A DNA stretch of 64,000 nt from Lepisosteus oculatus (Eukaryota; Chordata; Actinopteri; Semionotiformes; Lepisosteidae): the NCBI RefSeq assembly GCF_040954835.1, contig NC_090699.1, forward strand, positions 19,663,817 to 19,727,816, written 5' to 3'. This document shows, in pieces, positions 8,174 to 41,577 of this stretch. Below the pieces are notes generated by a model. The model saw only the letters and a list, made by a program, of their open reading frames with translations, had not been told where the DNA came from and searched no databases. The position numbers and the translations under genes were made by a program. Positions within the stretch are counted from its first letter, which is position 1. Every line of letters starts with the position of its first letter.

Positions 8174-8216
<43 letters not shown>

Positions 8217-8741
8217 GCTTACACTTATATAGCGTTTTTCTGGACACTCCACTCAAAGCGCTTTACAGGTAATGGGGACTCCCCTCCACCACCACCAATG
8301 CGCAGCCCCACCTGGATGATGCGACAGCAGCCATAGTGCGCCAGAAGGCTCACTGCACATCAGCTATTAGTGGGGAGGAGAGCAGAGTAATGAAGCCAAT
8401 TCATAGATGGGGATTATTAGGAGGCCATGATTGGTAAGGGCCAATGGGAAATTTGGCCAGGATGCCGGGGTTACACCCATACTCTTTTTGAGAAACGCCC
8501 TGGGATTTTTAATGACCACAAAGAGACAGGACCTCGGTTTTACGTCTCATCCAAAGGACGGTGCCTGTATACAGTATAGTGTCCCCGTCACTATACTGGG
8601 GCATTAGGACCCACATAGACCGCAGGGTGAGCGCCCCCTGCTGGCCCTACTAACACCTCTTCCAGCAGCACCTCCCAGGAGCTGCTTAGCTTCAGTGGGT
8701 TGCCAGTTGTGAGTTGCAGGGTGATATGGCTGCTGGCGTTT
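8171..8741 (-). mobile_element. 5S rRNA-derived SINE (copy 1), inserted inside the Tc1 element
   Basis: Read on the minus strand, the element starts near 8740 with a head resembling 5S rRNA: GCCAGCAGCCATATCACCCTG, then CTGAAGCTAAGCAG and CTCCTGGGAGG. These correspond to the 5' end and to the internal promoter region of 5S rRNA. A body of about 400 bp follows. It ends in the words gcgctatataagtgtaagc and an (ATT)n tail, seen on the plus strand as (aat)n at 8176-8214. A short direct repeat (tttat) flanks the insertion. SINEs with 5S heads belong to the SINE3 class; transcription by RNA polymerase III is inferred. Confidence 0.85.
8631..8644 (-). promoter_or_regulatory. CTCF-type motif inside SINE copy 1
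   Basis: On the minus strand the bases match the CTCF core consensus CCASYAGRKGGCRS at all 14 positions. The motif sits just downstream of the 5S-like head. Binding is not shown by sequence. Confidence 0.55.
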
Positions 8742-8921
8742 ATGCATAGTTCTCCCATTTTAGGGGACCAAAAGTAATTGGACAATTGGCTGCTCAGTTG
8801 TTTCTTGGCCAGTTGTGTGTCGTTGCATCGTTAGTTCATGCACAAGAGAGCTAACAAAAGGTCTAGAGTTGATTCTAGATGTGGCATTTACATCTGGAGT
8901 CTGTTGCTGTTGTCTCTCAAC

Positions 8922-9972
8922 ATGTGGACCAAAGAAGTGTTAATGCCATTAAAGTGGGCCATCAGGAGGCTGAAAAATCAGAATAAATCTATCAGAGACA
9001 TAGCCAAAATATTAGGTGTGTCAAATCAACAGTTTGGTACACTGTTAAGAAGCACGAATGCACTGGTGAGCTTAGCAATAGCAAACGACCTGGTAGACAA
9101 CAGGAGACCACAGTAGTGGATGACCGAAGAATACTATTGTAAAGAAAAACCCCTTTTCAACTGTTGAACAGATCAGGAACTCTCTTCAGGATGTAGGCAT
9201 AGATGTGTCAAAGACTACCACAAAGAGAAGAATACACCACCATAATCTCAGAGGGTTCACCACAAGATGCAAACCACTGGTAAGAAAGGCCAGGTTACAG
9301 TTTGCTGAAAAGTACATAAAAAGCCTCTAGAGTTCTGGGACAATGTACAGAATGTACATCTGCCTTATGTACAGATGAGATGAAGATTAACCTGTACCAG
9401 AGTGATGGAAAGAGAAAAGTATGGAGAAAAAATGGAACTGCTCGTGATCCGAAGCAAACCACCTCATCTGTGAAACATGGTGAAGGTAGTGAAGGTAGTG
9501 TCATGGTTTGGGCATGTATGGCTGCCAGTGGAACTGGCTCACTTGTCTTCACTGATGATGTGACTCCAGACGGCAGCAGCAGGATGAATTCTGAAGTGTA
9601 CAGAAGCATCTTATCTGCTCAGATCCAACCAAATGCCTCAAAAATCATTGGACGGCACTTCACCTTGTAGCAGGACACTGATCCCAAACATACTGCTAAA
9701 GCAACTATGAAGTTTTTCAGGGCCATAAAGTGGAATGTTTTTAACTGGCCAAGTTAATCACCTGACCTGAGTCCCATTGAGCATGTATTTCACTTACTGA
9801 AGACAAGACTGAAAGCAAAAAGCCCCCCAAAACAAGCAGGAACTGAAAATGGCTGAATTACAGGCCTGGCAGAGCATCACCAGGAAAAATACCCAACATC
9901 TAGTGATGTCTATGGGTCGCAGACTTCAGGCAGTCATCAATTGCAAAGGATTTGCAAACATGCCAAATTTTA
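8922..9972 (+). pseudogene. Tc1 transposase, inactivated
   Basis: The plus strand shows the N-terminal helix-turn-helix (KSIRDIAKILGVS) and then the DDE domain. The first catalytic Asp is seen in MKINLYQSDGKRKVW context just after TDEM. The second lies in the QDTDPKH motif and the Glu in SPDLSPIEH. At least two nonsense codons interrupt the domain: TAG at 9668-9670 just before QDTDPKH, and TAA at 9755-9757 just before SPDLSPIEH. Both look like C-to-T changes of Gln codons. Frameshifts occur near 9110-9140, 9320 and 9840. A 9-bp tandem duplication lies at about 9482-9500. The start is placed at ATG 8922, matching the usual Tc1 start region. Confidence 0.85.
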
Positions 9973-13100: not shown

Positions 13101-14479
13101 ATAAATGTACATATTACCCACTAGTCAGTGTTATTAAGAAACATACATTGTCTAGCAATCAGTAAAATGTTTTTACACTGAAAAAAACAATGTGAAATTC
13201 CAAAGCCTCCTGTTAAATTCACCATGTATCTGCAAACATTATTTACTAAATAGCTGTCGATTCTTTGTGCTGACTGTGGATTTCCTCATATGTCACTAGT
13301 GGTTTTATATATGTCATTTTGGAGGCATTTTTAATAACAAATATTAGGTACAGCTGTAACATTCTGGATACTGACATATAAAACACTGATTACAGGGATT
13401 GTGTTCTCCCTGTTTAATCAATGGGTAATACTGTATATTCAAAAGCACTCAGACATTCTAACATCTCTGAGAGAACTGTAAAAGCAGCTTATAGTTGAAA
13501 CAATATGTATATTATCTTCTGTAAGTATTTTATATATAGACAATTCAAATCTGGAAAAATACATTTTTTCCACCCTGCAAATGCTAAAGATATAGTGGAA
13601 TAAAAATTATCCTTAGAACTAGACTCCAGGATTTTGCTTGTATCCCTTGCACACTATACTTCTACAGTAACAGCTGTTTGTACTGGTGCCTCAGGGGTCT
13701 CTATTGGGGCCTTCATCTATGCGTTACTCATAGGTTGCATGCTTCATGAAACATGGTGTCTAGCCTGACAAAACTCTAATTTATTTTACTTCCAGCTCAG
13801 ACACTCAAACAGCTGGGTACACTGGTTACCTGGAATTTAAGGGACTACTCTGAATTTCTCCCCTGTATGCATGTGCTTGTGTCCTGTGATACCCAGTGAC
13901 ACAGTGAGTACCCAGAATAGTGCCCATTGTCTGCTATTTTAAATAGTGTCTCACCACAAATCCGTTTTGGACCAAGCAGTTATTGAAAATCAATGGCGAT
14001 GGATTTTATCGACTTTCAAGCTTACCATATAAAGCTTGCTAGCAGCAAGCAGCGCAGCAAAAGTGTATGAAAACAATGTACTTCTGTGAGTAAGCTAGAA
14101 GACGTTGTGGACTCTTTACGAATTTATCACATCATAAACACTAACATTCCTGTAATATTACATTTAAACATCCCTGTAACATTCCTGGATAACAGATACA
14201 TTGGTTATTCAGAAAATAAACAACAAATAAAACTTTTATTCGTAGCGCACATCTCTAGACTTTTTCGAATCTTTTCTCCTCAGATTGAAATTTGCCGACT
14301 GCAACTAATAACTGATAATAATAGGCATGTAAACAATGAGACGTTAAGGTACAGGGAGTTAAAACTTACTATTCACGTATATGTGACACACTACCATATT
14401 ATACACTACTATAAAATATATATAACGTTATGTTTCCATTAATCTGTCGAACCTTTCCTTAGCAAAATTGACTGATCTG
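10161..14479. other. Intergenic, no gene recognised; possible old repeat at 11.0-11.6 kb
   Basis: No coding sequence was recognised. The segment at about 11010-11640 differs from its surround in being less AT-rich. It contains a TATA-like gataaaaag after a GC-richer stretch and could be part of an old LTR or another dispersed repeat; I cannot name it. The 155-codon open frame at 11968-12435 is AT-rich and has no recognisable domain, so it is not called. The rest is unremarkable AT-rich sequence. Confidence 0.4.
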
Positions 14480-14493
14480 TCAGCAGGGGGCAC
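14480..14493 (+). promoter_or_regulatory. CTCF-type motif upstream of scd
   Basis: The bases TCAGCAGGGGGCAC match the CTCF core at 13 of 14 positions (first C replaced by T). The motif lies about 1.7 kb upstream of the scd promoter, in sequence that is not obviously a repeat. Occupancy is inferred only. Confidence 0.4.
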
Positions 14494-15479
14494 GAGCGAC
14501 GCTTCTTGACTTCCGAAGCATGGAGGCGGTCAGATGCCGTCCTGTGGCGCTGTAAAGCAGCTCGAATGAAATCCGTCTTTGTATATTTACACGTAAAGCT
14601 ACAGACCTGGAGTAATTCGTAATGTCTGAATACATCAGAATTACCCTGGGTTAGTTCTTTCAGTTTATACTTTGATTACAAACCGAGCTTCTGTCAGCAT
14701 GTGAAAACGAAGGGTTATCGAAGAATATCCATAAACCCATTTTCTAACCGCTTCATCCAGTTCAGCGTTGGGAAGGAATCGTCTTTATTTACTTGTCAAG
14801 TCTCCAATAAACTATAATTTAAGGAAGATTATACAGTTATACAGTGTTAATACGTTGCATTTGGTGTTGTGAATTAAGATTTATTAAAAAATACTTTTAT
14901 TTTAGGAAGCAACTAGGTCTAGATTCCATGGAGGGTATTGATATCGTATTCACTCGATTTAGTCGGCAAGTTCGGTGATTATTGTTACTTTACATGATTT
15001 CACTGAGTGTAATGCTAAGAAGTAGCATTTTATTTTGAAGTAGTGAAAACTAATTAATGTTATTGGCGAAATGACATTTATAGTTATTCACGGGAGAATA
15101 ATAGCAATATTATTCTGGTGATTTTCTGTAGGATTTATGATGTAATATTTATTGCTTTCAAAAGCGTGAGAATCAGTTAGGAAAAAAAAGATTTTAAAAG
15201 GGTAAACGCCGTCTTGTGATGAGGTGAAACAGCTCGAATAAAGTAAATCTTAATATATTTACTTAATTGTGTTACACTAGGATGAATATACCTATTCATT
15301 TGCATGTGTAATATTTTTGTCGTTTTGCTTTTATTCCGAGTAACTTAAAAACTGATCAGCAGTGCTATCCAAATGTTCACAATATCTTAAAACTCCGCGG
15401 CATCTTCAATTTATTTTGTATCCCCTTATTGCTTCGCTGCTAGCTTGCCTACCCGATTCAACTCCATTATTTTTCAATA

Positions 15480-16330: not shown

Positions 16331-16583
16331 TTTCAGTGTGTTTAAAGCAGCTGCTTCTCTCAAGGTAAGTGCTAATCAAACATTGTTTTCATTTACTGGT
16401 ATTCCTATTTTTCTAAAACCATATTTAAATCTAAAAACCTAAGGGAGAAAGCAAAACATATTTAGCAAATGCAGCAATCGAAAAGGTACGGTTTTTCTCG
16501 TTTCTTGAAATGTACACTCAAACGAAGAAAATGTCTGTCTTTTAGATTTTAGTAGCTGGCAAGAAGCGCAGAATTAGCTCACG

Positions 16584-19500
16584 ATGACTACAGCGGAGAC
16601 ACGCAGAAACGGGGAGGTTGCGACAGAGTCCACGGTGGAAGACGTGTTTGATGAGACTTACAGGGAAAAAGAGGGTCCGAAACCTCCCAGGAAAATTGTA
16701 TGGAGAAACGTTATCTTGATGTCCTTACTGCACGCAGGAGCTTTGTATGGGCTGACCCTGGTTTCCTCTGCTTCTGTCTTGACCTTGATGTGGGGTGAGT
16801 GTTGTTGCCACAGTTCATGATTTCCACGATCTGTGATACTTCTTTCATTCAAAATGGCCTACACATTTTTTGTGGCGTAGTTGAATTTAAAATGTGATGC
16901 GTGCGGCACCGAGTCGCTTTAGTGCTGTTGAGAGCCTCTGAGGCGAAAAGAGATCCTTTCGCAGCTCAGCACCTACTGGAGACACGCTGTAGTGAGAAGC
17001 GAAACCGCTTGAATTGTTGCTCATTGTAACCAGCAGGAGCTCGCAGTGTTGGATCTCGCCGAAACCCGCTGAAATATTAAACTTTTAGAGGTATAAAAAG
17101 AAATTCTACAACTTGTTTTTCCAATCCAGCGTCCTGGTGTCAAATGTTTGCTGTTTCATGTTCCACAGTGGTATACAATTCAACACCCCCCGGCAATCCT
17201 GATTATTTTAATTGAACTCCAGATTCACCTAATAATTACCAACTAAATCGGGAACAGGCAGTTCACGTCCCGTTCCAAAATCAGCTTTATTTGAATGGGT
17301 CAAGACACCCATTTATTTATTTTATGTGTTAATTGGGAGTAAAAATAAAGTATTGCTGAAACCTGCAGGAATGCAGCCACAGAGCAGTGAAGTTACCTAT
17401 ACTTGAACTAGACCTTTTTGAATCGTTTTAAGTCCCAGAACTAAAGTGGCTTGAAAACTTTTCAGTGGTGGGAAAGCAAAAAGGTTCATTTCAGTTAGGG
17501 GTTCAATTAAGCGATTGAATGTAGAATGTAGAAATTGAAAACTTGAAGGCCAGGAATCTGAACACCTACAAACGTGACAAGCGCAGAACACACCATGGAC
17601 CTGGGGGGGCTGGATTTCTAGACTTTTTAAAGCAGCAGCACCTGAAGAGCTGGGAGAAGTTGGTAAAGTGGTTGAATTAAGATAATACAGATCTGAGCTG
17701 GAATGAAAGCCTGCAGACGCTCCTTTACTGAGACCAAGCTGAAACAGTTTGCCTGCACAGTTCAGCTTCACTACTTACAAACGCAACTGATTAAACTGTG
17801 TGAAAATCCTAATCCTAATATTTTAGTGAAGTATTTCTTCATTAAGGGAATTCCATTTGTTTTATGGGGTAGAGGCAAAGACTAACTGAATGCATATTGT
17901 TTAGTGAGGAAATCATTTTCTTAGCTGCTGATAAAAATGAAAAGTACAGTACAGAAATGACACTTGTTGAGTCTGATTCAGAGTTGTTAGCATAGTCCAG
18001 CATTTTATTTCAGCAGAACGTACTGTATCAGTTTCCTGTGCTTGTCTTAATTTACCAGATAATCCTTAATGTACATATTTCAGGTGAAAGCCTGCCAGTG
18101 CAGAACTTTCCAGGTTATACAGTATGTGATGCTGTTGTCATATGTAACCTTATAAAACTTAGTGGTTTTCCCCTATTCTCACACTGAATATTTTTTTGTA
18201 TTGCATCAGATGAGGAATAAGTACCTGCATCTGCAGTCAATATAGTATAGTAGTCTGTGTAGTTACAACATCCTTCCTTCCAAAGGATAAAATCTAAGAT
18301 TCAATATCTGAGGAAAACTCTGTGTTTGGCTTTTTATAGGAACTATGTACTAGCCCTTTGATAGCATTAAATGTTCATTTATTACTGAATAGCTAAACAT
18401 GAACTAGAGGGCACAAGTGGGAACTACATCCACTTTAAACAGAGCATAGGAGGCAAAGGGTTCTTTACCCATAAGTTTGTGTGAGTGACAAGCTACGCAG
18501 TCGTTGAAGCCGATACCCTGGCATTTTTCAAGAAAGGGCTGAATGAGATTGGATCAATTACCTAACTTCCAAATGAGCCAGGTGGGTCTAGTACGTCCTG
18601 CTCAGCCAGATGTTTTTTGAAAGAAGTTATGATATTGGTTTTATGTATCACAGTGACCAAAGCTGAACCACAGTATTCTTAAATGAAATTATAGTTATAA
18701 TAACCCTTTTTTTCTAGTTTTAACTGTTTATTGCAACATATGTTTGCCTTGTTGTTTATGTACATTGTCTGGAGCAGAGGTTCTTTTTCCTAGTCCTGAG
18801 GGGATTGTTGTGTGCTGCTTTTCATTCCAGCTGTGCCCCTTAATCACCAGTGCTAATTGGTGCCAGTAATTGATCTACTTGCTTCATTACTCAGGCCTTG
18901 GTTTCAAAACTTCCCCATTTAAAGTGCATTACATACAACAACAAACACAGAAGAATTTGCTTGTTTATTTGTGACTAAATGCTCTTAATAGGTGGCCAGT
19001 GATCAATAGACGGGTGGGAATGACACAGTGTCAGACGCACACACATTGTGTCAGCGTTTTTCCTTCGGTTTATGTCCTGTTTGTCACATTTCAGCTGACA
19101 CACTTGAGTGATGGGAGCTCTGAAGCTCACGAATAAGCACAGGGTTGATACCGATGATACATCCCATTCAACACCTTAAGAGATAAAGACATTTTTCAAA
19201 TAGGCTTAAAATGGAAAATAGAAATCAATTAGTCTGTGATTAAGAATACCATCTCCCTGGACCAGGAGTGTGAAACATCTGGCTAGAAGATGGTAATGAT
19301 GTTAGTCCAAACACCTATAATATATGTTGTTCATAATTACATGTCTTCTTCAAGTTGTTTTTTTCTATTCTTTTTTTAGTCTGTTTCTGCTTCCTGCATA
19401 TAACACTCTGCACTTAATCTACATTAAACATCACCGTCTTCTACCAGGTGTTCGCCCAGTCCTGACTTTTGTCTGATTCTTCTTAAAATCTCCTTTGCAG

Positions 19501-22500
19501 CTTCTACAATGCCAGCTGATTCTATAATTTAACTCTGGAATGAATCTTTTGTTTTGAGGGAATTTATCAAAAACCTAAGAAATTCTTACTACACAATATC
19601 ATACAGTCTCTTTATATCCATTAGTACTGTTACTTGTTCAACAGATACTGACAAATTATTTAAGTAAGGCCTTGCCTTTTAATTCCATGTTTACTATCCC
19701 ATAAGGACTTAAGAAAGATTGAAAATGAAGGAAGGTCATTAGACCCATCTTGCTCATTTGGTAAAATATGTTCCAGCTGTCTCTTTAAAAGTGCCCAGAG
19801 TCTGGGCTTTAACCACCTGGCTGGCAAGTCCCGTCCCAGAAACTCACAGCTCGTTTGGGTTACTGGATCATTGTGGCCTCTCCTCACATCTGCACAAGTA
19901 CGAGTCATGCCCCTTAAGAAGACATGCTGTCTCCTGAATCCGTTGAATGCTGTTGCCATGCAGATGATCCCCTGGTTGAATTTGGACTGTTGCAGCGGTT
20001 TTGTTTCTCTTTTTATAAGTGCTAATTAATAGGTTATGGAAAAACATTTCTTAATTGAACATATTCACTTATTAAACTGAAAAAAAAATCATGTGTGCTT
20101 ATAATCTTTACAGATTGATGTTTTAAGGGGGGGCTGGTGAGATCTGCTGGACTGTAGCTCTATAGGACCAGAGTTGCCCACCCCTGCTCTGAAGTGAAGT
20201 AGTGGTCACTTGGACCCCTGTATCTGCTGATTATTTTGTGCCTGTAGGGCCCTTAATCACTTCTGCCCAGCTGATGCCTTTGATTGATCTGTTTGTTTAA
20301 TTAGCCTTTTTCTGCACTCTGTCCTTGGATTCAAAATACCTATTTATAGTATAATATTCCCAACACTGTAAGCATACAGAAGAACCTGCTCCCTCATTTA
20401 TGACTGAAAACATGTCAATAGGTGACAGGAGGTTGGATGTTGAATGGATGCAGGTGTGAAAGCATACTGTATGTCAAACACTTCCACGGTGTTTATTGTT
20501 GATTTTTTTTTTCCCCCTTTTGCTTTAGCCCAGGTGGTTACATTTCGGCTAACACACCTGAATAAGGGGAATTCCGAAACTGAGGAATTGAGACAAATTC
20601 CACAAACCCCAACATCCAGTGTTTTAAAGAGTTTAAAGAAAATTCAGGATTGAATTTAGACAACACGCCTAAAACAGAAAATCAGAATGAATTTCATCAT
20701 GATTATGGCCTTGGCTGGAGCAGAACCCAGAAGGTGCACTGGTCCTCCAGGATCAGGAGTGAGAACCAGTATCTTCACCCATGTAATTCCATAACAGGCT
20801 GCACACATTCCAAATTTCCATATGAACTCCTAGCTGGGTTCTAAACAGTGCTGTGTCCCTCCCTACACATATAAGTGCTGATATAAATCAAAAGGTTAAT
20901 CTACGTGCATTTACTGACATTCTAAAGGACAGATTACCAGACGGAGCCCTCATCCTAACATTGCACTAAGCTTGGCAGTGCTGAGGCGGCGTAATATTAT
21001 ATTAGAAGAACAATAAACAATGGCAGTTGCAATAGACTTCCCATTGTTAGCTGGGTCAGCCGATAACTGTGTCCTTCTGAGCCAATTTTCAGGCCTGCCT
21101 CATGGTCACAGAGCCCACAGGTCCTCGGCAGTCTGCACTAATGGTACATACAGCTACCTTTAGTCTTAGTAGCAGGTACAGTTAATGCTGGTTTAGGAAA
21201 GGACTGTACCTAGTTAGTCTGAACAGAGTTAAAAAGGCATGTAACTGGAATAATTGTGACTGTTCGCATTGGGACATGTTTTAACGCTTCCTTTCTTCCT
21301 TGTCCCTGGGCAGCTGTCTTGTGTTTCCTGCTGAGCGCCTTAGGAGTGACAGCTGGGGCACATCGACTCTGGAGTCACAGGTCCTATAAGGCCAAACTGC
21401 CCCTGCGGATCTTCCTCGCTTTTGCCAATTCAATGGCTTTTCAGGTACAGTACAATAATCTCCCAGTACTACGTGAATGACGCTCTTTGAAGAGATGAGA
21501 AAAGCCAGAGACTGTGAAGGAAATCTTTTTAACTGGCATATAATCACATCAGTGCCCCCTTCACTGAGGCTCATGGGTAGATAATTATTAGTAATAATAA
21601 CTGACTGGATGCCTGCCAAGCTTATTAGCTTAAGAAACAGGATGATGATCTCCAGTCATGTTCTCTGTATTAATTGTTGTTACTTAAAAATGGCAGGTCA
21701 TAGGTGAGCAGAATCTTTGCTAATTATATTGTGCGTAATCTGCAGAATGACATCTACGAGTGGGCTCGGGACCACAGAGCTCACCACAAGTACTCTGAAA
21801 CAGATGCCGATCCCCACAATTCCGGAAGAGGATTTTTCTTTGCTCACATTGGTTGGCTCCTGGTACGCAAACACCCTGATGTCATTGAAAAGGGAAGCAA
21901 GCTGGAGCTCACTGATCTGAAGGCAGATCCCGTCGTCATGTTTCAAAGAAAGTAGGTGGTGCAGCTTTCTCTCCACACGCTGGTCATTGACTCGTTTTGC
22001 TTTGTAAATGAACCAGCGTTCAAGTCTGCTCGTTGCTGTAAATGATTCTTTCTTTTTTTGTGTAGGATTATTTCATCCATCTTAGATTTTATGGTATTAG
22101 ATTTTAAAATCTCCATTTCCCCAGAATATATATGTTCGTTCACTGTGCTTTGATGCTTCCAAAACTTTATACAGTATCTACTGTAATGTAATTGTGAGCG
22201 TGGTCTTTCCAAGTATGAATGCTTGACAGTTTTAATAATTATTATTTTCTTGCATTTCGACATATAAGAGGGGACCCTACAGCCTTCACCGGGATGATGT
22301 GCAGCAGCCATTCTGCACCAGTAGCTCCACTTCAATAAAATACGTGAACAAAATGAATGTCAGATTTAAAGATTTGATATTCCCCATTTTGGCATGTTAA
22401 AATAATGCTATGATCTGTAGACTATTGGTTTATATCCTGCATATTTTTTCACCTGAACTTGAATAATGGAGATGACTGTCTGCTTCAATAAGAACCTGCT

Positions 22501-25500
22501 TTTTTGCCAGAGTTCTGTTCTGTCTTGTGAATTATAAGGAATTATAATGGTTGGGCAAAAAAACACCTATTAGGAAATGCACATAATTGAAGAACATAAA
22601 TAATTTCCATTTACCTCTGTGTTTACTATTAAAGGAATCCATTAGTAGAGTTGCATGTGTAAGACATTTGAAGGAAGTATTGAACAACATTAAACTGCAG
22701 AGTGATGAATCCGAAGTAAATTGTTTAGCATTTCCAGCGTTATCTGTGCTAATTGGCCATGATCTCTTGTGGGGCATTTGGTTTGAGGTTTTTACCAGCA
22801 TCAGAAGAATAAAGAACTTTCTAAACCCCAGATGTGGCTATAATATTAAGGAATTAAGGAGGCTAGAATGCATACTTTGACTCTCTTGCTTGAGAACGTG
22901 ATGCAGTGACTCGGCTGGTAAAGGATGGGTCTTGTCATCAGCTGTGATTGGGATTCTCCAAGCTGTGGCAAACAACTGGCTGAGCGTTCCTGAGGGTGGG
23001 GTGGAGTTAGCTGGCCTCTCAGCGACACAGCGACCCCTGTGGCTTTCCAACAGTACTGTAGGTCAGGGACACATCTCTCCTCCAATTAGCACTGATCCTC
23101 CAATACAGAAGTCTGTTACTGTTAGTAATTGTGATGCTAAAAAATAAAGACCTGTGCAGGGTGATTTCCCCATGCTATTGCAGGAAGTCCTTATAAAAAA
23201 AAGTTACAAATACGCAAGTCCAAATAATCAAAAACCCATGGGCAGGCGAAATCAAAACTGGGCTGGGACAGTTCAGTCGAGACAACAAATCCAAATTGCA
23301 AAAGGCAGAAACGAGGTCAGAAACTAGCGAGAGTCCGGGAAGCAACGAAGAGATCAAACCGAAAGAAAAAGGGTACGCACACATCCGAAATAGTGAGCGA
23401 CGGTAAAGGAAAGAGGAGGGTTCAAGTAGTGATTGGAGTGAAAGGCGATAGGAAGAGGGTCTGTTTAAGTGGGTGCGTATGGGAATGTGAAGGCGTTTGT
23501 TAGAGCGCGCAGGATGCGTAACAGTTACCTGTGTCATGTTCAGAGATTAGCTCAAAGGAGGGCAGGCTGGAGGAGTCTGCCTACACTTGCTCATTTTTCT
23601 CTTGTGCAGGCACAAGGATGATTGCTGCAAGATGGGACATGAAAAGCACAGCTGGCTATTTCAAACTGAAAATCTAGCAAACAATCATTGGCCATTTTTA
23701 ATTTTTTCAAAAACTCACAATTGGCCTAATGAAAAATCCAAATCGAATGCGTACATAACAAAAAATAATTGCTTATTCCAAATAAAAAAAAATCCCAAGA
23801 GTATACTACACAGTCTTAGATATTTTCACAAAATGCTCCTTAGCCTTCCTGGATTAATGAAATAGCACAGAAGACATTTTAAGCATTGCAGCATTGTTTG
23901 GCAGGAGTTTGTTGCACCTGTCAGAAGCCATTAACATTCCCTGGATTTGAAATCCGTAGAGGATTATTGTGTTAAATTTTAATCATAATCTGTACCAATT
24001 CAATGGGAAAAAACTAACCATTTTAACAGTACTTTCAGTGCTTTTTGAAATCAAAAGAAGTGTAAGGGTTAATTGAGATAACCGGGCCCGTCTTTTGTGT
24101 GATGTTTTTCAGGAATTATAAGATGTCTGTGGTTCTGATGTGCTTCGTCTTTCCCACGGTTGTGCCCTGGTACCTGTGGGGAGAGTCTTTGTGGGTGGGG
24201 TACTTCATTCCTGGAATCCTGAGATACACTCTGGTGCTGAATGCCACCTGGTTGGTGAACAGTGCTGCCCACCTGTGGGGAAACAGGCCATATGATGTGC
24301 ATATCAGCCCCAGGGAGAACAGATTTGTCACCTTCAGTGCGATAGGTAAGTTTTACATGATTAGTCACCAGAGCAGGGGAAGCTGCCCTATGGCAATTGC
24401 AAATTTTTTTTATCTTCCTACTTTTAAAACTGTACATGTTTGAAGACCAGACACTCTAGCAGCTAGGCAAGTGTACTGGAGCAAGTTAAATATGTGACAA
24501 TAATTGAGGTCAAGAAGGAAATCTGATCAACACACTTGACTCAGAAATGGTTTGTTAACCACAACACTGAACGGAAACTTTGCAGATTCCATCAACTAGC
24601 AAACTTAAAAATTTACTACGATTGTAACTTGTATGTATGAAATAGGTCTTCCTGAGTAATCCAAGATGGCAGCTATACCAACATTTTTTACTTGGTTGTT
24701 GATAAGCGGCCCATAACTATTTATGCAATTTTAAAAGTGTGGCCGGCTAGCTCAAAACATGTCTGTTAGCATTCTAGTGAGTATACTACTAGCATGTGAC
24801 TCAGTGTCATTCTTGCTTATACCAAAATGATCGCCATTTTGTTCACAAGCAAACTGCCATATCAAACTGCTCTCATTCCATACTACCAATTGATTTTGAT
24901 TTGACAGATTTCACAAACAGCCATTACAGTTCCCGATTCTCCCCTACCAAGCTGCTTAATCATTTTTCCTGCCACAGTGGATCCTTGGCTGCCTAGCAAA
25001 TCATTATTACAAAACCCAGTTTGGTCCTGTTCAAGGACTTCTTCACCAGTTATCTCCAGACTTAGTAGTTTGAATGGGATTTGCTGGTAATGACATGTTC
25101 TGAAATATTTTCTCAGTTCTTTAGCTGGTTCAGGCCTCACCTCTCTATGTATGCTTATCTTTCATTTCCTCACTACACTTTCACTCCTTCTCCCTGATGC
25201 CCTACATCAGGGAGAACAGCCAACCTATTCCACACACCACCACTCTTCGCAAAAAAGTGCTTCCTTTGCTCCTTGTGTTCTCTGAAGACCCCCTTCATCT
25301 CTATATAAAGCACGAAATGCAAATGCAGTACGTGCCCTTGTGCTTTGGCTTGCTTTGAAAACAATGTCTGAGCCTTGCAATGAAGTCTTTACTGTAACAA
25401 AAGCACAGAATTTTCCAAATATAAAAACAGTCCAATTTTGTAATTCACTGTTGTTTTCTGATGTTTAGTTTTCATTGCTTTAAGCACAATAACTCCCTTT

Positions 25501-26473
25501 GTTTGGTGGGCGAGTCCAGTTGGAAAACTTTCTGTTTTATAAATTTGATCCCTTAATTGCTAGCAGTTTTCTTGTATAACAGTTATTTCTTTCAAGTGTA
25601 ATAACATTTCTGATTCCAGATTCAACTGGAGTGTGTTTTAATGTTTTGAGCTCAGTTCGGGAATTGTATATTAAGTGCATTTAAAAAAAAAAGTGCACTT
25701 CGTGAATAACAGTACTGTACTTATGATTGTGAGAATTTTGTGAATTTTTTATTTCTTCTAAATTCTTCAGTTCATTATGTTGTGTGTAAATGCAGAGGGA
25801 ATAAGGTATAACTGTAGCTACACATAATGCATAATTAGTGACATAAAGTTAAATAAAATCTTCACTTCAAAACTGCTTAACATTATAACCATACAATACT
25901 TAAGAAAATAATTTCACTTGCATTAGTACATGGAATGTTTTGACTACAAAGGCTCAAGCAAAGAATGAACATTGTTTTTGAAGTCGGTCTTTATATTTGA
26001 GAAGCTTTTTTGTGATCTTCAGTTCTGCCGAACACAATGTAACCATTCAATTATGCTAGCTTTTATTTTGCTTAAATTAGGCCTAGTGTTTGTTAGGCAA
26101 TGAAGGAAAAATACATAGCATTGTCTGCCTTGCTTCATTGCTGTTGCTGTCAAGTTTAAACTGTCGGATACTGCTATGTGGAGGAAAATATTTGCAGTGT
26201 GGTAAATATTAATCAGGGATAGTGCTACTATGTGATTAACCTGAGATAACTCTTCTGTTTGCTTTTGTTTCAGGAGAAGGGTTCCACAACTACCACCACA
26301 CTTTCCCATACGACTATGCAACAAGTGAATTTGGTTGCAAATTAAACCTCACCACCTGCTTCATTGATTTCATGTGCTTTGTGGGCCTGGCTACGGACTG
26401 CAAGAAAGTGCCACAGGAATTGGTCATGGCCCGTGCTCAGCGCACAGGGGATGGCAGTCACAGAAGTGGCTAG
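16584..26473 (+). CDS. scd: Stearoyl-CoA desaturase (acyl-CoA delta-9 desaturase), complete
   Basis: Five coding exons join in frame to 326 residues: 16584-16794, 21314-21444, 21746-21951, 24113-24345 and 26274-26473. All borders are GT/AG. A 5' UTR intron (16365-16545) precedes the start. The enzyme sits in the ER membrane and inserts the delta-9 double bond into stearoyl- and palmitoyl-CoA, using electrons from cytochrome b5. The di-iron ligands are visible: HRLWSH at residues 87-92, HRAHH at 124-128, NSAAH in exon 4, and HNYHH at 265-269. Hydrophobic segments surround them (for example 43-65 and 71-83). Spacing of the three boxes is identical to human SCD with a 33-residue shorter N-terminus, as usual in fish. 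ATG 16584 is the first Met of the frame after the 5' UTR acceptor. Introns 1 and 3 hold several repeats. No defect is seen. Confidence 0.97.
18449..18600 (+). repeat. Dispersed repeat fragment, family of the 39.4-kb copy
   Basis: This scd intron 1 segment shares ordered words with 39364-39570, including ctttaccc, gacaa.ctac.cag, taccc..gc, agaaag.gct and atgag. Both are diverged copies of a common fish dispersed repeat. The family could not be named from memory with confidence. Confidence 0.5.
18775..19281 (+). mobile_element. Non-autonomous hAT-like element (copy A) in scd intron 1
   Basis: The left end CAGAGGTTCTTTTTCCTAG and the right end, read in reverse complement as CAGATGTTTCACACTCCTGG, form imperfect terminal inverted repeats beginning CAGA, as in many fish hAT elements. 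The interior shares ordered words with copy B at 20190-20790 (ccttaatcac, attgatct, cagaagaa, ttaataggtg, cagctgacacac). No transposase frame is present. An exact 8-bp target duplication is not obvious. Confidence 0.55.
19690..19960 (+). repeat. Dispersed repeat fragment in scd intron 1
   Basis: The segment begins with words like ggtcattagacccatcttgctc and continues agctgtctctttaaaagtgcccagag. A shorter relative with the same opening (ggtcattcagacctat) lies at about 37805-37990. It belongs to a common fish interspersed repeat whose class I cannot fix. The 99-codon minus-strand frame inside it is not called as a gene. Confidence 0.4.
20190..20790 (+). mobile_element. Non-autonomous hAT-like element (copy B), next to another hAT terminus
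   Basis: The right end, read in reverse complement as CTGGTTCTCACTCCTGATCC, resembles the copy A terminus, and the interior is collinear with copy A. Immediately to the left, at about 20145-20186, lies a different hAT-type terminus (minus strand CAGGGGTGGGCAACTCTGG). Two elements therefore appear to abut here, and the left end of copy B is unclear. Confidence 0.5.
21952..24112 (+). other. scd: scd intron 3 with repeat fragments
   Basis: The intron holds a fragment at about 22262-22335 with the words gatgatgtgcagcagccattctg, related to the repeat at 34690-35040. A GC-richer block at about 23175-23540 ends in gtaacagttacctgtgtcatg and looks like part of a retroelement, perhaps an LTR. No gene is recognised in the intron, and the open frames there lack known domains. 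Confidence 0.4.
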
Positions 26474-29994: not shown

Positions 29995-30565
29995 ACGCCA
30001 GCAGCCATATCACTCTGCAACTCACAAGTGGCAGCCCACTGAAGCTCAGCAGGTGTGAGCCTGGTCAGTATCTGGATGGGAGACCTCCTGGGAAAAACTA
30101 AGGTTGCTGCTGGAAGAGTTGTTAGTGGGGCCAGCAGGGGGCGCTCACCCTGCAGCCCATGTGGGTCCTAATGCCCCAGTATAGTGATGGGAACACTATA
30201 CTGTAAAAAGGCGCTGTCCTTTGGATGAGATGTAAAACTGAGGTCCTGACTCTTTGTGGTCATTAAAAATCCCAGGGCGTTTCTCAAAAAGAGTAGGGGT
30301 GTGACTCCAGTGTCCTGGCCAAATTTCCCATTGGCCTTTACCAATCATGGCCTCCTAATAATCCCCATCTATGAATTGGCTTCACTACTCTGCTCTCCTC
30401 CCCACAGAGCGTTCTGGCGCACTATGGCTGCCGTCACATCATCCAGGTGGATGCTGCACACTGGTGGTGGTGGAGGGGAGTCCCCATTACCTGTAAAGTG
30501 CTTTGAGTGGGGTGTCCAGAAAAGCGCTATATAAGTGTAAGCAATTATAATAATTATTATTAATG
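29995..30565 (+). mobile_element. 5S rRNA-derived SINE (copy 2), near full length
   Basis: The head (cgccagcagccatatcactctgc) and the segment ctgaagctcagcag, gagcctggtcagtatctgg, atgggagacctcctgggaa align with 5S rRNA almost word for word, including the internal control region. The body and the end (gcgctatataagtgtaagc followed by att repeats) match copy 1 in reverse. AT-rich target sequence (aatta) occurs on both sides. This is the least damaged copy in the window. Confidence 0.9.
30131..30144 (+). promoter_or_regulatory. CTCF-type motif inside SINE copy 2
   Basis: CCAGCAGGGGGCGC matches the CTCF core consensus at all 14 positions, at the same place in the SINE as in copy 1. Confidence 0.55.
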
Positions 30566-30759
30566 CACCTGTATGTGATTTTATGTGATTTTTATGTTTT
30601 GCTTTGTGTGTGTCTGTTTGATGTACTGTACGTCTTATGGGCAAAGCCAAAGACACATTTTTACAGTTGTACAAGTTGTACATTGGTCTCACATTTCGAG
30701 ATGGAGATTGTTGTGCCAAGAAACTTAAAGGTCCAGTTCCTACCCCCTCAATATCTGAC

Positions 30760-31830
30760 CAGCAATCATGACAGGTTGTAATTCCTTCCTGTCACATCTG
30801 AAATCAAACATTACCTCTTTGGTTTTACTAACATCAAGCTGGAGATGTTTTGACTGCACCAGCTCACCAAAGCAGTGACCTCCTTCCTGTACAGCGATTT
30901 GTCTTTTTTTGTTATTAGCCCTACCAGATTGGTATCATCTGCAAACTGGATTCATTTCACAGATTTAATAGCAGATACAAAGTCATTAGTTTTCAAAGGG
31001 GTACAGAAGTGGTGACAGAAACCTTGGGGGGCACCTGTATTTAGAACCAGTGGCTGTAAGACCTTCTGATGTACTTTGACCACATGACTACATTGCCTCC
31101 TGCCTGATATAAAATCTAGAAACATATTGATTGATTGATTAACAACCTTGTCAATTAGCTTATGAAAACGTCTCTGGGGGACTACTGTGTTAAAGGCAGA
31201 GCTGTAATCTACGAACAAGATATGTGCTAAGGACCTCAAGGTGCTGAAAGATGGAGTGAAGGCACAGAAAGACTGTGTCCTTAACAAACCTGTTAGCCCT
31301 GTACCTAAATTGGTGTGTATCTTCCTGGATGCTGGACAGATACTTACAAAATAGCTGCTCAAACACTTTCATAATGGCTGATTATGAAACTTCTGGCCTG
31401 TAATCATCTAAATTTGTTACGTTCAATTTCTTTGGCGCTCGGATAATAACAGCAGACCTAAAATAAGCAGGAACCCCAGACTGTTGTAGTGACACATTAT
31501 AAATCTTAGTAAGAGTGGGTGCCAGCTGATCTACACAAGATTTTAAAGTTGCACCTGAAACATGATTTGGGGTCCCAGCTTTCCTGCCATTTTGTTTGCA
31601 AAGCAGATGTCTATCCTCCTGTCCACAGATGATAATGGGAGATGTAGGTGGTTCTAGAGGTGTGTTAACTGTTTGTTGATGGCAGTTCTGTACTCCATAT
31701 CTACCACAGAAATTATTCAGTTTGTCTGGGAGCCCTGGATTATCATCAAGAGCTACTTCTGTTTCCTTATAGTCTGTAACAACGTACATTCTTTGGCTGA
31801 GGGACCAAATATACACCAGATATCTTTCAC
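30760..31830 (-). pseudogene. LINE reverse transcriptase fragment (CR1/L2-like), frameshifted
   Basis: On the minus strand, parts of a non-LTR reverse transcriptase appear in order across several frames. LKSCVDQLAPTLTKIYN and APKKLNVTNLDDYRP fall at 31816-31382, MKVFEQLFCKYLSS at about 31372, and LFVDYSSAFNTVVP and LNTGAPQG at 31362-30952. The catalytic FADDT box lies at 30945-30931, followed by NLVGLI. Frameshifts separate the parts and no ORF1 is seen, so this is a dead 5'-truncated copy. The VDYSSAFNT and FADDT wording is typical of fish CR1/L2-type elements; the exact clade is not certain. Confidence 0.8.
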
Positions 31831-32199
31831 ACAGAGCTCACACATACAGTGCTGTGCATGCCAGAGACTGAGTGCTTCACACCTTCAATTTTGATCTGTC
31901 ATGTACATGATTCATGACAGCCTTTACATCTCAGACACTGTTATAGCAGGTATTTGGTCAGAAAAAAAAAGGTTGAATGCCATTCTCATTTTTTAACTTG
32001 AAATAATTATTTGCATCCATACTTGTCTCCCCAAATGTATTGCCCTCTGACTCCAATACAGAAGTCTGAAAATACCTTTGTAATACAATGGAGGTCTCCT
32101 GTGTCTTGTTCTCTGTTGAAGAGAAGACTGCTGTATAGCAATACTTATTAAAAATCAACAAATCACCTTGTTGTTTCACATGAGACTCCTGTATCTTGG

Positions 32200-32290: not shown

Positions 32291-32519
32291 TTTTCCTTCT
32301 TCTAAACTTAATCCTTAAAGTATACCACCACCCCACCTCTCCTCCCCACAGGAACAGAGAGACTCTACCCAAACAAAAACCCCAAAGAGACGCCCCGCCC
32401 CATGACATCACTGCCCCACTCTTACAATCGTTAAAACATCACAACAAAACATTCCTCATTTGTTTCAGCACAAAAGGCTTAGGACACATACATTGCTGCA
32501 AGATATTAATGCTAAAATA

Positions 32520-33020
32520 GCATTTATTAGGAGGCCATGATTGGTAAAGGCCAGGAGGGAAATTTGGACTAGCCAGGGGGGTTAACATAATAGTGGCAGC
32601 TCAGACAGCAAGGGTGTCTAGCTCCTAACCAGAAGGTCCCAGGTTCGATCCCAGGTAGGGGAAAGCAATGGAACTTGTTCTAATTCCTTCCAGATGGCTC
32701 TCAGGTCCACTCAGCCTGCTTTCCCAATGAGTACCAGGGGTTAATCCTTCCAGGGGTAATAGGCCAGCCAGAGTGTGATGCTGACCACATCACCTCCAAC
32801 TCCAGTGTTGGATGGTCAAAAACAATGATGGCACTTGCCCCATTTAAAAATCTAATCTAAAAAACACCCTGGGATTGAAGAATAGCCCCCTTTTTACAGT
32901 ATGGTGTACCATACTAGGGCATTAGGACCCACAAGACGAGTGCTCCCTACTGGTCCCACTAACACATCTTCCAGCAGCAACCTTAGCTTTCCCAGGAGGT
33001 CTGGCCAGGCATTCAAAGTG
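32520..33020 (-). mobile_element. 5S rRNA-derived SINE (copy 4), interrupted by a tRNA-derived SINE
   Basis: Two separated pieces of the 5S SINE lie on the minus strand at about 32520-32588 (aggaggccatgattggtaaaggcc) and 32864-33020 (accctgggatt, actagggcattaggaccc, cttccagcagcaacctta). The 5S-like head is degraded. A CTCF-type motif matching 13 of 14 positions persists at 32940-32953. Confidence 0.65.
32590..32863 (+). mobile_element. tRNA-derived SINE nested in 5S SINE copy 4
   Basis: The start (gtggcagctcagacagcaaggg) and a perfect RNA polymerase III B box, GGTTCGATCCC at 32642-32652, look like a degenerate tRNA gene. A tRNA-unrelated body and an A-rich end (near 32850-32863) follow. The position between two pieces of the 5S SINE shows it inserted later. 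The anticodon arm is not well preserved, so it is not a working tRNA gene. Confidence 0.65.
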
Positions 33021-33270: not shown

Positions 33271-34680
33271 TCGCAGCTGCTGTGAGTGCAGTACCATGAG
33301 TGACATGGTGAGAGGGCAGGCAAGGACTGAGAGCAGACAAGATGGAATGAAGGCCTGGGCTGACATGACTGCCAGCTGGAGAAGGGCAAGGACAGGCTCT
33401 GGCAGTGCAGTAAGTGTTGCAAGTGCTAAGTGATAGATTTCACCACTGTGTAAACATGGGGATTGTGGCAATATTTTGTGCAAAGTCAGCAATAAAAGAA
33501 AAAAACACTGCTTCTAACAGATTCTTGAAACTAGTGACTCCAACATGCTCACATTAAGACAGAATTCATTTTTTCCAATTGTTTACCTCAGTATCAGCAA
33601 GGGCAGTACAACAGCAATGGAGGAAGATTTAAAGACCTTTTGAAAATACTGTAATGTTAGCAATAATATGATAATATTTCATAGATGGGAAGCATCCAGG
33701 TGATAAGGGTAGTGCCTGGTTAACGGACACCAATGACCACAAGTCATCAAACACTGCAACTTAAGAAAGAGAAACACTGACAGAGACCAGTGCAAAAGGA
33801 TGAGAGTAATAAGGGGGAAAAATGCTTCTAAGGGTTAAGTAAAGCTTTCATGTTGCAGAGGACTAACCCTTCCTACTGTTATAGGACTTTAACAGAAGCG
33901 TATATAATATGTTTTTTACTAATTGTATCTTGTAAACTCCTATATATATAAACACACACCACATATATAGTATTCCTGCACAGAACACATCCTGTATAGT
34001 CTAAATATTAAGGCTCTCTCAGTTCACAATTCAATAGTGTCTTATGCTTTTAATTACAGCCTCCTTTTTCACCTCAGGACCTTGGTTAACAGCTCAGGGT
34101 TACTGCACTTCCAACCACACAGAATTTGTTCTCATTGAAGGTAATTTATTTGGCGATTGGGAACAGAGGCTGTGCTACTGTCTGCAGGAGAAATCCAGAC
34201 GTTTTGCCAATGTATGTCTCTGAGGAAATGCTTTTGAGAAATAAAACATTGTGCAAGATTCTTTACAAAGAGCCCCCTTTTAAATAAAACTATAGGATGG
34301 GGACCAGGATGGGGTTTTAAACATTGTATAAAATTAAAGTTCATAGTCATTTTCTGTTAATTAAAAATAACCTTTTAGACAAATGTATGTATTATAAGTA
34401 TTTTCTGTGTTCCTTGCTCCAATATCATTGCTACATTTTCAGCTGAATGTCTTCTCCTTAAAGGGCAGACTTAAAAACCAATTCTCTTTCAAAATGCCTC
34501 AGTTTCTGAGTGTAGTTTTAGGACCACTGTGTGTGAGGAGAAGAGCAACACCAAACCCACGTGTCATGTTGTTTGGTGACATTTTGCTCACACTGGGGAA
34601 AAAATAATTGTGGCATGGGTGAAAATGTGGCATTTCTTCATATGTAAATACTTAATAATACTACATAATTATGAGGGACT
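33271..34680. other. Intergenic, nothing recognised
   Basis: There is no gene and no named repeat. A short TA/CA-rich tract lies at about 33940-33970. Confidence 0.35.
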
Positions 34681-34689
34681 TTTCATCCC

Positions 34690-35040
34690 ATGGGATCCCT
34701 ACACACTTTTAACACAGGGGGGGATCGACCTCTTCCACTACTTAAGTGCAGCCTCACCTGGGTGACACGCAGCAGCCGTTCTGAGCCAGCGGGCCAGGCA
34801 GAGCAGTGGGAAGGTGCTTCTTCACTCAGAGAGAACTTTAGGACAGACTAGATAAGCCCAGAGTGAAGATCAGCCAGGACACAGTGGCTTATCCTGCTCT
34901 GAGGAACAGCACCATGGGAATGCTGATGACAGAGTAGTCAGGATTTAACCTCTCATCTGAAGGAGTGCACTCCCTACAGCACACAGTCCCACCAACTACT
35001 GGTCCACCAACATCCTTTACAGTGTCCAACAATACCCCTT
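34690..35040 (-). repeat. Diverged SINE-like repeat related to the 5S SINE body
   Basis: Words such as gcctcacctgggtgacacgcagcagccgttctg and cctctcatctgaaggagtgcactcc parallel the body of the 5S SINE in minus orientation (ccacctggatgatgcgacagcagccatagtg, acgtctcatccaaaggacggtgcc). No 5S head is visible. A further fragment lies at about 22262-22335. Confidence 0.5.

Positions 35041-36953: not shown

Positions 36954-37000
<47 letters not shown>
36911..37000 (+). repeat. Compound microsatellite (AAC)n(AAT)n
   Basis: About 90 bp of aac repeats (36911-36954) passes directly into aat repeats (36954-37000). Confidence 0.9.
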
Positions 37001-37001
<1 letters not shown>

Positions 37002-39363
37002 CTGCCATGAACTGTATAAAACATTATTATGAAAGGTCTTAATTCTCTGAAAAGCCAGTGCTCACGTTTTATCTAGAATCTTGTATATCTTTTCCAAACG
37101 AAAAGGTATGCAGGGTCATACCTGGTCAAGACTTTGTTTACATTAAACACTCTTGCAGCAATGAACATTATGTTCTACATATCAGATTATTTCTTTATTA
37201 AAAGTCCAATGTACTCAGTTTGGAGCACTAATACTTTTCAGAAAAGCCTTTTAATTTCGGAGACCCACGGGTTTCTCGTTTCCTCAACATTTAAATGTTT
37301 CAGCATGTTACAATTTCCTTCTGACCTAGGAAAGGCTTTACACCACTCCTCTGGTGCAGTTTAAGGTGGACCGCTCCACATCATGAGAGGGTGCACTTCC
37401 CTTTAATTTAGGCTGTATGGTAAAGGCAGCTGAAGACACACCCTGTAATTTCTGCTGCTGCAGATTAAAAAATATCAGTGGGTAGAGCGAAGTGTTGATT
37501 CCTGACTGATTAAATGTGCAATACCGCGCTGTAGGGAGCCTCAAGATAAATAAGCTCTTATCCCGGATAGTCTGATTGCAAACCAGAGGTCTTTTAGTAC
37601 CGTGAAAGATGAAACAATTTAATTGCTGTTTGATGTTTTCTGGAGGCATACATTCATTTTAATGTGACTTGTGTGAATACAAGAATGGGTGAAAAAAAAG
37701 GTCCTTTTATGTATTACAGAGAAGGTGAAAACTATCCTGAGAAGGAAACAACTACAAATTGCCAAATGCAATAAGACTCTCAAGAACTTCAGAAAGGTTG
37801 CTAATAGGTCATTCAGACCTATTTGTTTGCTAGGACCTACTTCATCTGAGAATCTTTTTCAGCCACTTCTTGAAAGACGTCAAGACATCAGCCTAAACCA
37901 GCATGGCTGGGTAGTTTCGTACAAACTCCTACCATTTCTGTGCAGAGTAGTGTCCCCTTTAAAGCCACTTCGCATTATTTTCCACTCATAACTGGTTCAT
38001 GCTTCACTGTTCTTGTTCAGCTTCATGTGAGAAAGCAGATATACAAAACTATTTAAAGAAATATGAAAATGCGAAAAAATAAAGTTACAAAAACTGAGCT
38101 ATGGACTACATGCATGTCATAAATTCATTGCTGCTTTGCGATAAACATATTGACATTGATCGAATTCTGGGAGATTATACAGCCACTCAACTAATCTACA
38201 CTGTTATCAAGTGTGCAGAGAACCAGGAAGAGTGACGGTTTTGAAAGCGGAAAGATAAATCAGTTGCACACAGTTCAAAAAGTCAGATGGAAATTAGTGG
38301 AAAGCTCTTTCTTCAGACAAAAGCTTCCTGAATTAAAAAAAGAAACAAAAGCTTACGTATTGACTCTCATCAGTGAGACAAACAGTACAATATCTTGCCT
38401 CTTCCTTGATACTCACAAAATCAGAATTGACTGATTTGCTTGTTTTTTGTTGACCTTCAAATTAAATGATATTCCCCCTGGTTTACAGAATCAGAAAATT
38501 TTTAGTGCTTTTGAGCAACGGTACCTTTTGTTATGGTTTTGCTATTGATTTTGCTTTGGCTCAGTATTTGTGCTTAAAACGATGAAAAAGAATCAATGCA
38601 GAAAAGACGGTCTGCATGTAATTATAATAAAGTTTTAATAGTTTCTTTACCTTTTACTTATTTTGCTTTCACAACATAGTTTTCTCCTTTAAATAATTGA
38701 TTAAGAACTTGAGAAACATATAAGTGAACAACAGAACATTTTCCTCTGATTGCTGCATTTAATCTTTCACCTCTGTTCCTTATCGCTTTGATTATGAACA
38801 AATTATTGGTATCATCTTATGGAAGTGTAAATTGAATTGTGATGATTATATTCCAGGGAGGTACACAATTCTGGTTTTAATTATAAAAAACACTATGCCT
38901 GCACCAGCACATTGTTTACATATATACGGATGCAGTGGTCTGTGTCTCCACCTCCTGTTCGTCTTTTAGTACAGCAGGATCAGGCGATGCGTCAACCTTC
39001 AATCGAACCACGAGCCTAACGAGCATACGGATAAATGGTGATTATCACCACTAGTCTGATGCCTTCTTACCAGATTCTTTTTATTTACTTTATTGTATCT
39101 ATTATTTACTATTTCTGATCCTATTTTTTGTATATTAAAATTCTGGAAATGTTCGTCTGCAGTACTACCTTCTAAGGTATGATTGACTTATAGATTGCAT
39201 TTATATATTGCTTTTATGAAAGACTTAGCCATGCCTTGTTACCCCTTTCCAGGGCCACTTTACTTTGACAACCAACCATAAACTGGGCCTGCTTCTACGG
39301 CGATGGACCAGGACCTACGAGGGTTCTGATACAAGTATTCCAGATCCTAGGTGAGTCACTCCA
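37001..39363. other. Intergenic, with one dispersed repeat fragment
   Basis: The segment at about 37790-37990 is a relative of the scd intron 1 repeat at 19.7 kb. Nothing else was recognised in this AT-rich sequence. Confidence 0.35.
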
Positions 39364-41345: not shown

Positions 41346-41361
41346 AATTGAAAATAGTATC

Positions 41362-41577
41362 CTCATCCCTATACTGGGGCATTAGGACCCACACAGGCCA
41401 CAGGGTGAGCACTCCTTACTGGCTCCACTAACACCTCTTCCAGCAGCAACCTTAGTTTTTCCCAGAAGATCTCTCTTCCAGGTACTGACCAGGCTCACGC
41501 CTGCTGAGCTTCAGTGGGATGTCAGTGATTAACTGCAGGGTGACATGCCTGCTGGCATATGCAACCCCCAAAACCTT
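41362..41577 (-). mobile_element. 5S rRNA-derived SINE (copy 3), head half only
   Basis: Read on the minus strand from about 41577: ccagcaggcatgtcaccctgcag, ctgaagctcagcagg, gagcctggtcagtacctgg, aaactaaggttgctgctgg. That is the 5S head and the first part of the body. The element stops after the actatactgggg-like words at about 41362, directly beside the LINE 3' end. Its CTCF-type motif (41409-41422) is degraded, with AAGGAG in place of AGGGGG. Confidence 0.8.

Follow-up and report, generated by a model that had tools for sequence, protein, structure and literature searches.

The window, by which we refer to the whole stretch of 64,000 bases analysed, contains a gene that we have assigned to stearoyl-CoA desaturase (scd), together with a set of homologous short interspersed elements (SINEs), some of which carry a sequence resembling the binding site of CTCF. 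The coordinates of these features are collected in Table 1. Among the five open frames of scd, that at 24066-24443 matches Acyl-CoA desaturase 1 (4ymk_A, E 3.1e-30), and that at 21704-21955 yields an FA_desaturase match in Pfam of 24.6 bits, below the cut-off of 29.7, the other four frames being without a Pfam match; the assignment of the frames at 16578, 21223 and 26240 as scd exons is solely our own reading. Elsewhere in the window, 53818-54438 (+) holds a wnt exon (PF00110 with E 1e-47, positions 151-304 of the 305 of the profile), the gene being probably wnt8b, and a long open frame at 2676-4157 (+) matches tRNA (uracil-5-)-methyltransferase (PF05958, E 3.6e-9). Remnants of other mobile elements seem to be present as well. 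Just downstream of SINE copy 1, two open frames lie within 30952-31837 (-): the frame at 30952-31368 (-) resembles the reverse transcriptase of a LINE in disrupted form (RVT_1 at 15.8 bits and E 0.012, under the cut-off of 29.6), and the second has a chance-level match only. Beside SINE copy 2, the segment 8835-9670 (+) is presumably a Tc1/mariner transposase remnant; Pfam matches there are all below cut-off, being at best UBA_ARI1 (E 1.1e-4) and HTH_38 (E 2.3e-4) in 8835-9116 (+), and DUF7837 (E 0.046) in 9320-9670 (+).

Table 1. Position, strand and basis of assignment of the scd gene, the SINE copies and their CTCF-like sites.
Feature	Position	Strand	Basis
scd (stearoyl-CoA desaturase), span of the five open frames assigned as exons	16578-26473	+	Open frames; Pfam and 4ymk_A matches
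SINE copy 1, apparently full length	29996-30575	+	nhmmer 739.2 bits (copy within profile); sequence
5S rRNA-derived head, copy 1	29997-30115	+	Rfam RF00001, 51.1 bits, model 1-120 of 120
CTCF-like 19-mer, copy 1	30128-30146	+	25.57 of 29.15 bits, p 6.4e-10, hand-entered matrix; core 30131-30144
SINE copy 2, with internal deletions that shortened the 5S head	8189-8738	-	nhmmer 655.8 bits (copy within profile); alignment
CTCF-like 19-mer, copy 2	8629-8647	-	25.57 bits, p 6.4e-10; core 8631-8644; identical to copy 1
SINE copy 3, 5' part only	41352-41556	-	nhmmer 242.1 bits (copy within profile)
CTCF-like site, degraded, copy 3	41407-41425	-	4.15 bits; core 11/14
SINE copy 4, 5' piece	32888-33004	-	nhmmer 88.1 bits (copy outside profile)
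CTCF-like site, weakened, copy 4	32938-32956	-	15.74 bits, p 1.7e-6; core 13/14
SINE fragment, probably 3' piece of copy 4, counted with copy 4	32515-32583	-	nhmmer 26.3 bits
SINE copy 5, short fragment lacking the motif region, located between two exons of scd	22279-22324	-	nhmmer 11.9 bits, E 5.3e-4
SINE copy 6, old 3' fragment starting downstream of motif	34653-34989	-	nhmmer 55.5 bits, profile 196-555

The SINE copies were searched for with an nhmmer profile built from copies 1 to 3, so that three of the six copies are contained in the profile and their scores are not independent of it. Across the window, the search evidences six dispersed homologous copies or fragments, with copy 4 split in two pieces and the profile match of copy 1 spanning 29996-30574 (+); one of the six is on the plus and five are on the minus strand. 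Beyond these, the next match has E 0.82, and five shuffled windows gave nothing better than E 1.2. A tail match at 36956-37031 was rejected as SINE, as it is essentially an ATT run. Copy 1 presents a 5S head, a body and a tail with CTATATAA and an ATT-type end, and the tail, which resembles CR1-type tails, may be shared with a LINE of the CR1 clade. Within the window, Rfam recognises the 5S sequence in copies 1 and 3 only (in copy 3 with 39.5 bits, at 41438-41556 (-)) and in none of the remaining copies; in the head of copy 2 there is no 5S match even at E up to 1, because internal deletions took out part of it. A 5' head derived from 5S rRNA (RF00001, copies 1 and 3) and dispersed homologous copies are thus both found in this element, in keeping with SINE3, which PMC7245038 gives as the name for SINEs with 5S-derived heads. 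We have also looked for the element outside the window: one scan of a genome-contig collection returned 0 loci of the same SINE, and blastn gave no match in plasmids. Five exact SINE patterns gave 0, 1, 3, 0 and 1 loci in viral contigs, and four such loci were discarded as relatives of the SINE and taken as chance, since the match spans only pieces of 12-26 bases, with a best E of 1.5e-4 around the pattern itself.

The sequence-only reading had claimed that a CTCF core motif is perfectly preserved at the same place in two copies, and our pattern search and alignment bear this out. Indeed, CCASYAGRKGGCRS has exactly two matches in 64,000 bases, each reading CCAGCAGGGGGCGC, and these fall at the same alignment point of the homologous copies 1 and 2. 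Allowing one mismatch adds three matches in the 64,000 bases, at 32940-32953 (-), 14480-14493 (+) and 5940-5953 (-), and with up to two mismatches the window contains 21 matches, compared with 7.43 expected (sd 2.50), a number reached in 0 of 100 shuffles. Four copies span the motif, with core matches of 14/14 in copies 1 and 2, of 13/14 in copy 4, which reads CCAGTAGGGAGCAC at 32940-32953, and of 11/14 in copy 3, which reads CCAGTAAGGAGTGC as counted from the alignment; a recognisable version is therefore found at a fixed place on the SINE sense strand in 4/4 copies covering the region. The further claims that copy 4 retains 13 of the 14 positions and that copy 3 is degraded are equally correct. 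The motif had also been placed just after the 5S-like head, and this stands for copy 1, where 15 bases separate the core from the end of the 5S match and the motif lies in the SINE body, outside the 5S-derived part; in copy 2, Rfam fails to recognise the head as 5S. A two-mismatch motif at 34989-35002, at the edge of copy 6, was considered as the motif of that copy and is read as chance, because the profile match of copy 6 starts about 47 positions past the motif by our own count. These results support the view that the SINE is 5S-derived and has, at a constant offset, a strong CTCF-like site: the copies are homologous, the offset is shared, and the motif is strong in two copies and weak in the two others.

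The strength of the motif was evaluated with a hand-entered version of the CTCF matrix MA0139.1, which has a maximum of 29.15 bits. By this measure the two exact sites are the top two of the window, at 25.57 bits each, and are followed by sites of 18.58 and 17.66 bits. The third-best CTCF-like site by the hand-entered matrix, with 18.58 bits, is located at 14477-14495 (+), which is upstream of scd and within none of the SINE copies. At the shared offset the scores of the four copies are 25.57, 25.57, 15.74 and 4.15 bits, and by the last of these values copy 3 no longer has a credible CTCF site. One may ask if such scores arise from chance resemblance in a GC-richer repeat, as the four copies that cover the motif have 50-52% GC as compared to 41% in the window. 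Moreover, the two exact sites descend from one ancestor and therefore represent one event rather than two independent matches, which brings the effective number of independent matches to one, and single dinucleotide shuffles attain up to 25.0 bits for copy 1 and 22.5 bits for copy 2. However, the 25.57 bits are reached in 0/5000 shuffles of copy 1 and in 0/5000 of copy 2, with 25 and 28 shuffles, respectively, of the 5000 each at 18 bits or above, and the same SINE class is reported with CTCF footprints in zebrafish (PMC9341505). The motif match thus holds as a sequence observation, and chance is an unlikely account of it; indeed, we regard a chance resemblance due to base composition as highly improbable.

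A different issue is whether the motif has been under constraint, and what its state was in the family. Copies 1 and 2 have 92.4% identity over 525 aligned positions, and 31% of all 14-column windows are perfect between them, so that a perfect motif says little on constraint and we have dropped its identity in these two copies as an indication of selection. Conservation of CpG is likewise unremarkable, 5 of the 17 positions present in either of copies 1 and 2 being kept in both, the motif CpG included. The comparison of the four copies comprised 89 ungapped columns from CTCCTGGGA onward, gapped and earlier columns being left out, and copies 1 and 2 agree in 85 of these. Copy 3 differs from them at 8/85 columns, four of which are in the motif (4/14 against 4/71 elsewhere, Fisher p 0.023), and copy 4 at 11/85 columns, three of which are in the motif (3/14 against 8/71, Fisher p 0.38). 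For both copies the tendency is towards more divergence within the motif than outside it, and neither the windows of copies 1 and 2 nor the four-copy comparison indicates that selection has acted on the motif.

Core positions 5 and 10 split 2:2 among the four copies, as copies 3 and 4 have in common a T at position 5 and an A at position 10, where G is almost invariant in the hand-entered CTCF matrix. Of the 89 columns, no others set copies 3 and 4 apart from copies 1 and 2, and both of these are inside the motif. Set within the flanking sequence of copies 1 and 2, the four combinations at the two tied positions score from 17.91 to 25.57 bits. The family state is tied at these positions because the older copies share the two differences, and with only four copies covering the motif the perfect site is one of the candidate states of the family consensus; we infer that the motif as such belongs to the family ancestor. 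The chance probability of at least two positions at which copies 3 and 4 both differ is 0.28, hence the two may form a subfamily. It is conceivable, albeit rather unlikely, that the CTCF site evolved within the family, an older CCAGTAGGGAGCGC (17.9 bits) having been replaced by CCAGCAGGGGGCGC (25.6 bits) in younger copies, in which case the SINE would have acquired a stronger CTCF target while it was expanding. The window also suggests that site strength may differ between older and younger copies.

Taken together, we consider it quite probable that the motif belongs to the body of a SINE3-type retrotransposon and was copied by retrotransposition, its insertions being candidate CTCF sites, a statement which concerns origin and candidate status and not binding. 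In such a scenario, the motif would sit in the body of the SINE3-type (5S rRNA-derived) element just after the 5S head, retrotransposition would have carried it to each locus, and copies 1 and 2 would have kept a near-optimal CTCF target, the two more diverged copies having weaker or degraded versions. This near-optimal target is what makes these insertions candidate CTCF sites, with a direction that would be set by the strand of insertion. Binding of CTCF in this fish, by at least one copy in some tissue, may well occur, and we regard its prospects as evenly balanced. An account which shares the same origin, and differs only in respect to binding, holds the motif to be neutral sequence of the SINE body, similar to a CTCF site yet unbound, for example if the copies are methylated or closed. 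This is a serious possibility, to which we give somewhat less than even credence: the excess of differences of copy 3 falls inside the motif, with no sign of constraint, and a sampled SINE3-1a region of zebrafish is described as highly methylated in embryos of 13 hpf (PMC4275248). The very high score by the hand-entered matrix argues against it, as do the footprints reported over the same SINE class in zebrafish (PMC9341505).

In respect to scd, the last frame ends about 3.5 kb ahead of the start of copy 1 and the first frame begins about 7.8 kb after copy 2, and from their strands and positions relative to the scd frames the two exact sites flank the gene and point away from each other, just as had been noted from the sequence. 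A divergent CTCF pair is not expected to loop to itself under the usual convergent rule, and each site would face the neighbouring domain. The arrangement, with a site on either side of scd pointing outward, would fit a divergent insulator pair kept around the gene by selection. We find this very improbable, as divergent sites would not anchor a mutual loop under that rule, the likeness of copies 1 and 2 at the motif is nothing out of the ordinary, and another predicted site, at 14477-14495 (+) with 18.58 bits, intervenes between them; besides, a gene is often found between any two sites 21 kb apart. A function of these SINE insertions at scd is not supported by anything in our analysis.

The candidate sites described here can be compared with several known systems. 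Mouse B2 has a tRNA-derived head and would therefore share no origin with the SINE of the window. It is likewise a SINE that spreads CTCF sites, with CTCF reported as bound to more than 10,000 non-polymorphic B2 insertions (PMC8136502). Closer in origin is AmnSINE1, which a table in PMC3747384 puts together with SINE3 as 5S-derived DeuSINEs with CR1-type tails; PMC3368268 (Cell 2012), citing the AmnSINE1 paper, describes a CTCF site that is deeply shared and lies in an ancient SINE of amniotes. The likeness to the window SINE resides in the 5S-derived origin and in a CTCF-type site within a SINE, the difference being that this CTCF case is one example locus in mammals. Pointing partly in the opposite direction, Hi-C of 12 vertebrates reports SINE enrichment at TAD boundaries, except in cow, sheep and non-mammals, exceptions which its authors state may stem from poor assemblies (PMC9077971).

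The closest parallel is found in zebrafish, where SINE3-1a is reported among the subfamilies in which CTCF-bound sites are enriched, footprints having led to 1016 such sites (PMC9341505, Genome Res. 2022). In that study, which cites PMC7182764 as a zebrafish CTCF study, sites were inferred from ATAC footprints with motif and conservation scores, ChIP-seq serving as a check. SINE3-1 and SINE3-1a are further described as enriched in proximal open chromatin, and SINEs as making up 7.0% of TE fragments versus 11% of those in CTCF sites within TAD boundaries (PMC9341505). Judging from their name, as defined in PMC7245038, SINE3-1a and SINE3-1 are, like the window SINE, fish SINEs with a 5S-derived head, the likeness of SINE3-1a being one of name and description and not of sequence alignment or motif offset. 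The scd protein encoded in the window would differ from that of zebrafish. The earlier view of a 5S-derived fish SINE spreading CTCF sites as a separate case fails as a claim of novelty, zebrafish SINE3-1a having already been reported with CTCF sites (PMC9341505). For fish other than zebrafish, none of the titles and abstract beginnings among the matches listed in our literature searches naming CTCF ties a 5S SINE to CTCF. SINE-borne CTCF sites are a known route for genome folding to change between species, and the SINE of the window, with its candidate sites, is likely a further member of the kind reported in zebrafish and a plausible example in another fish.
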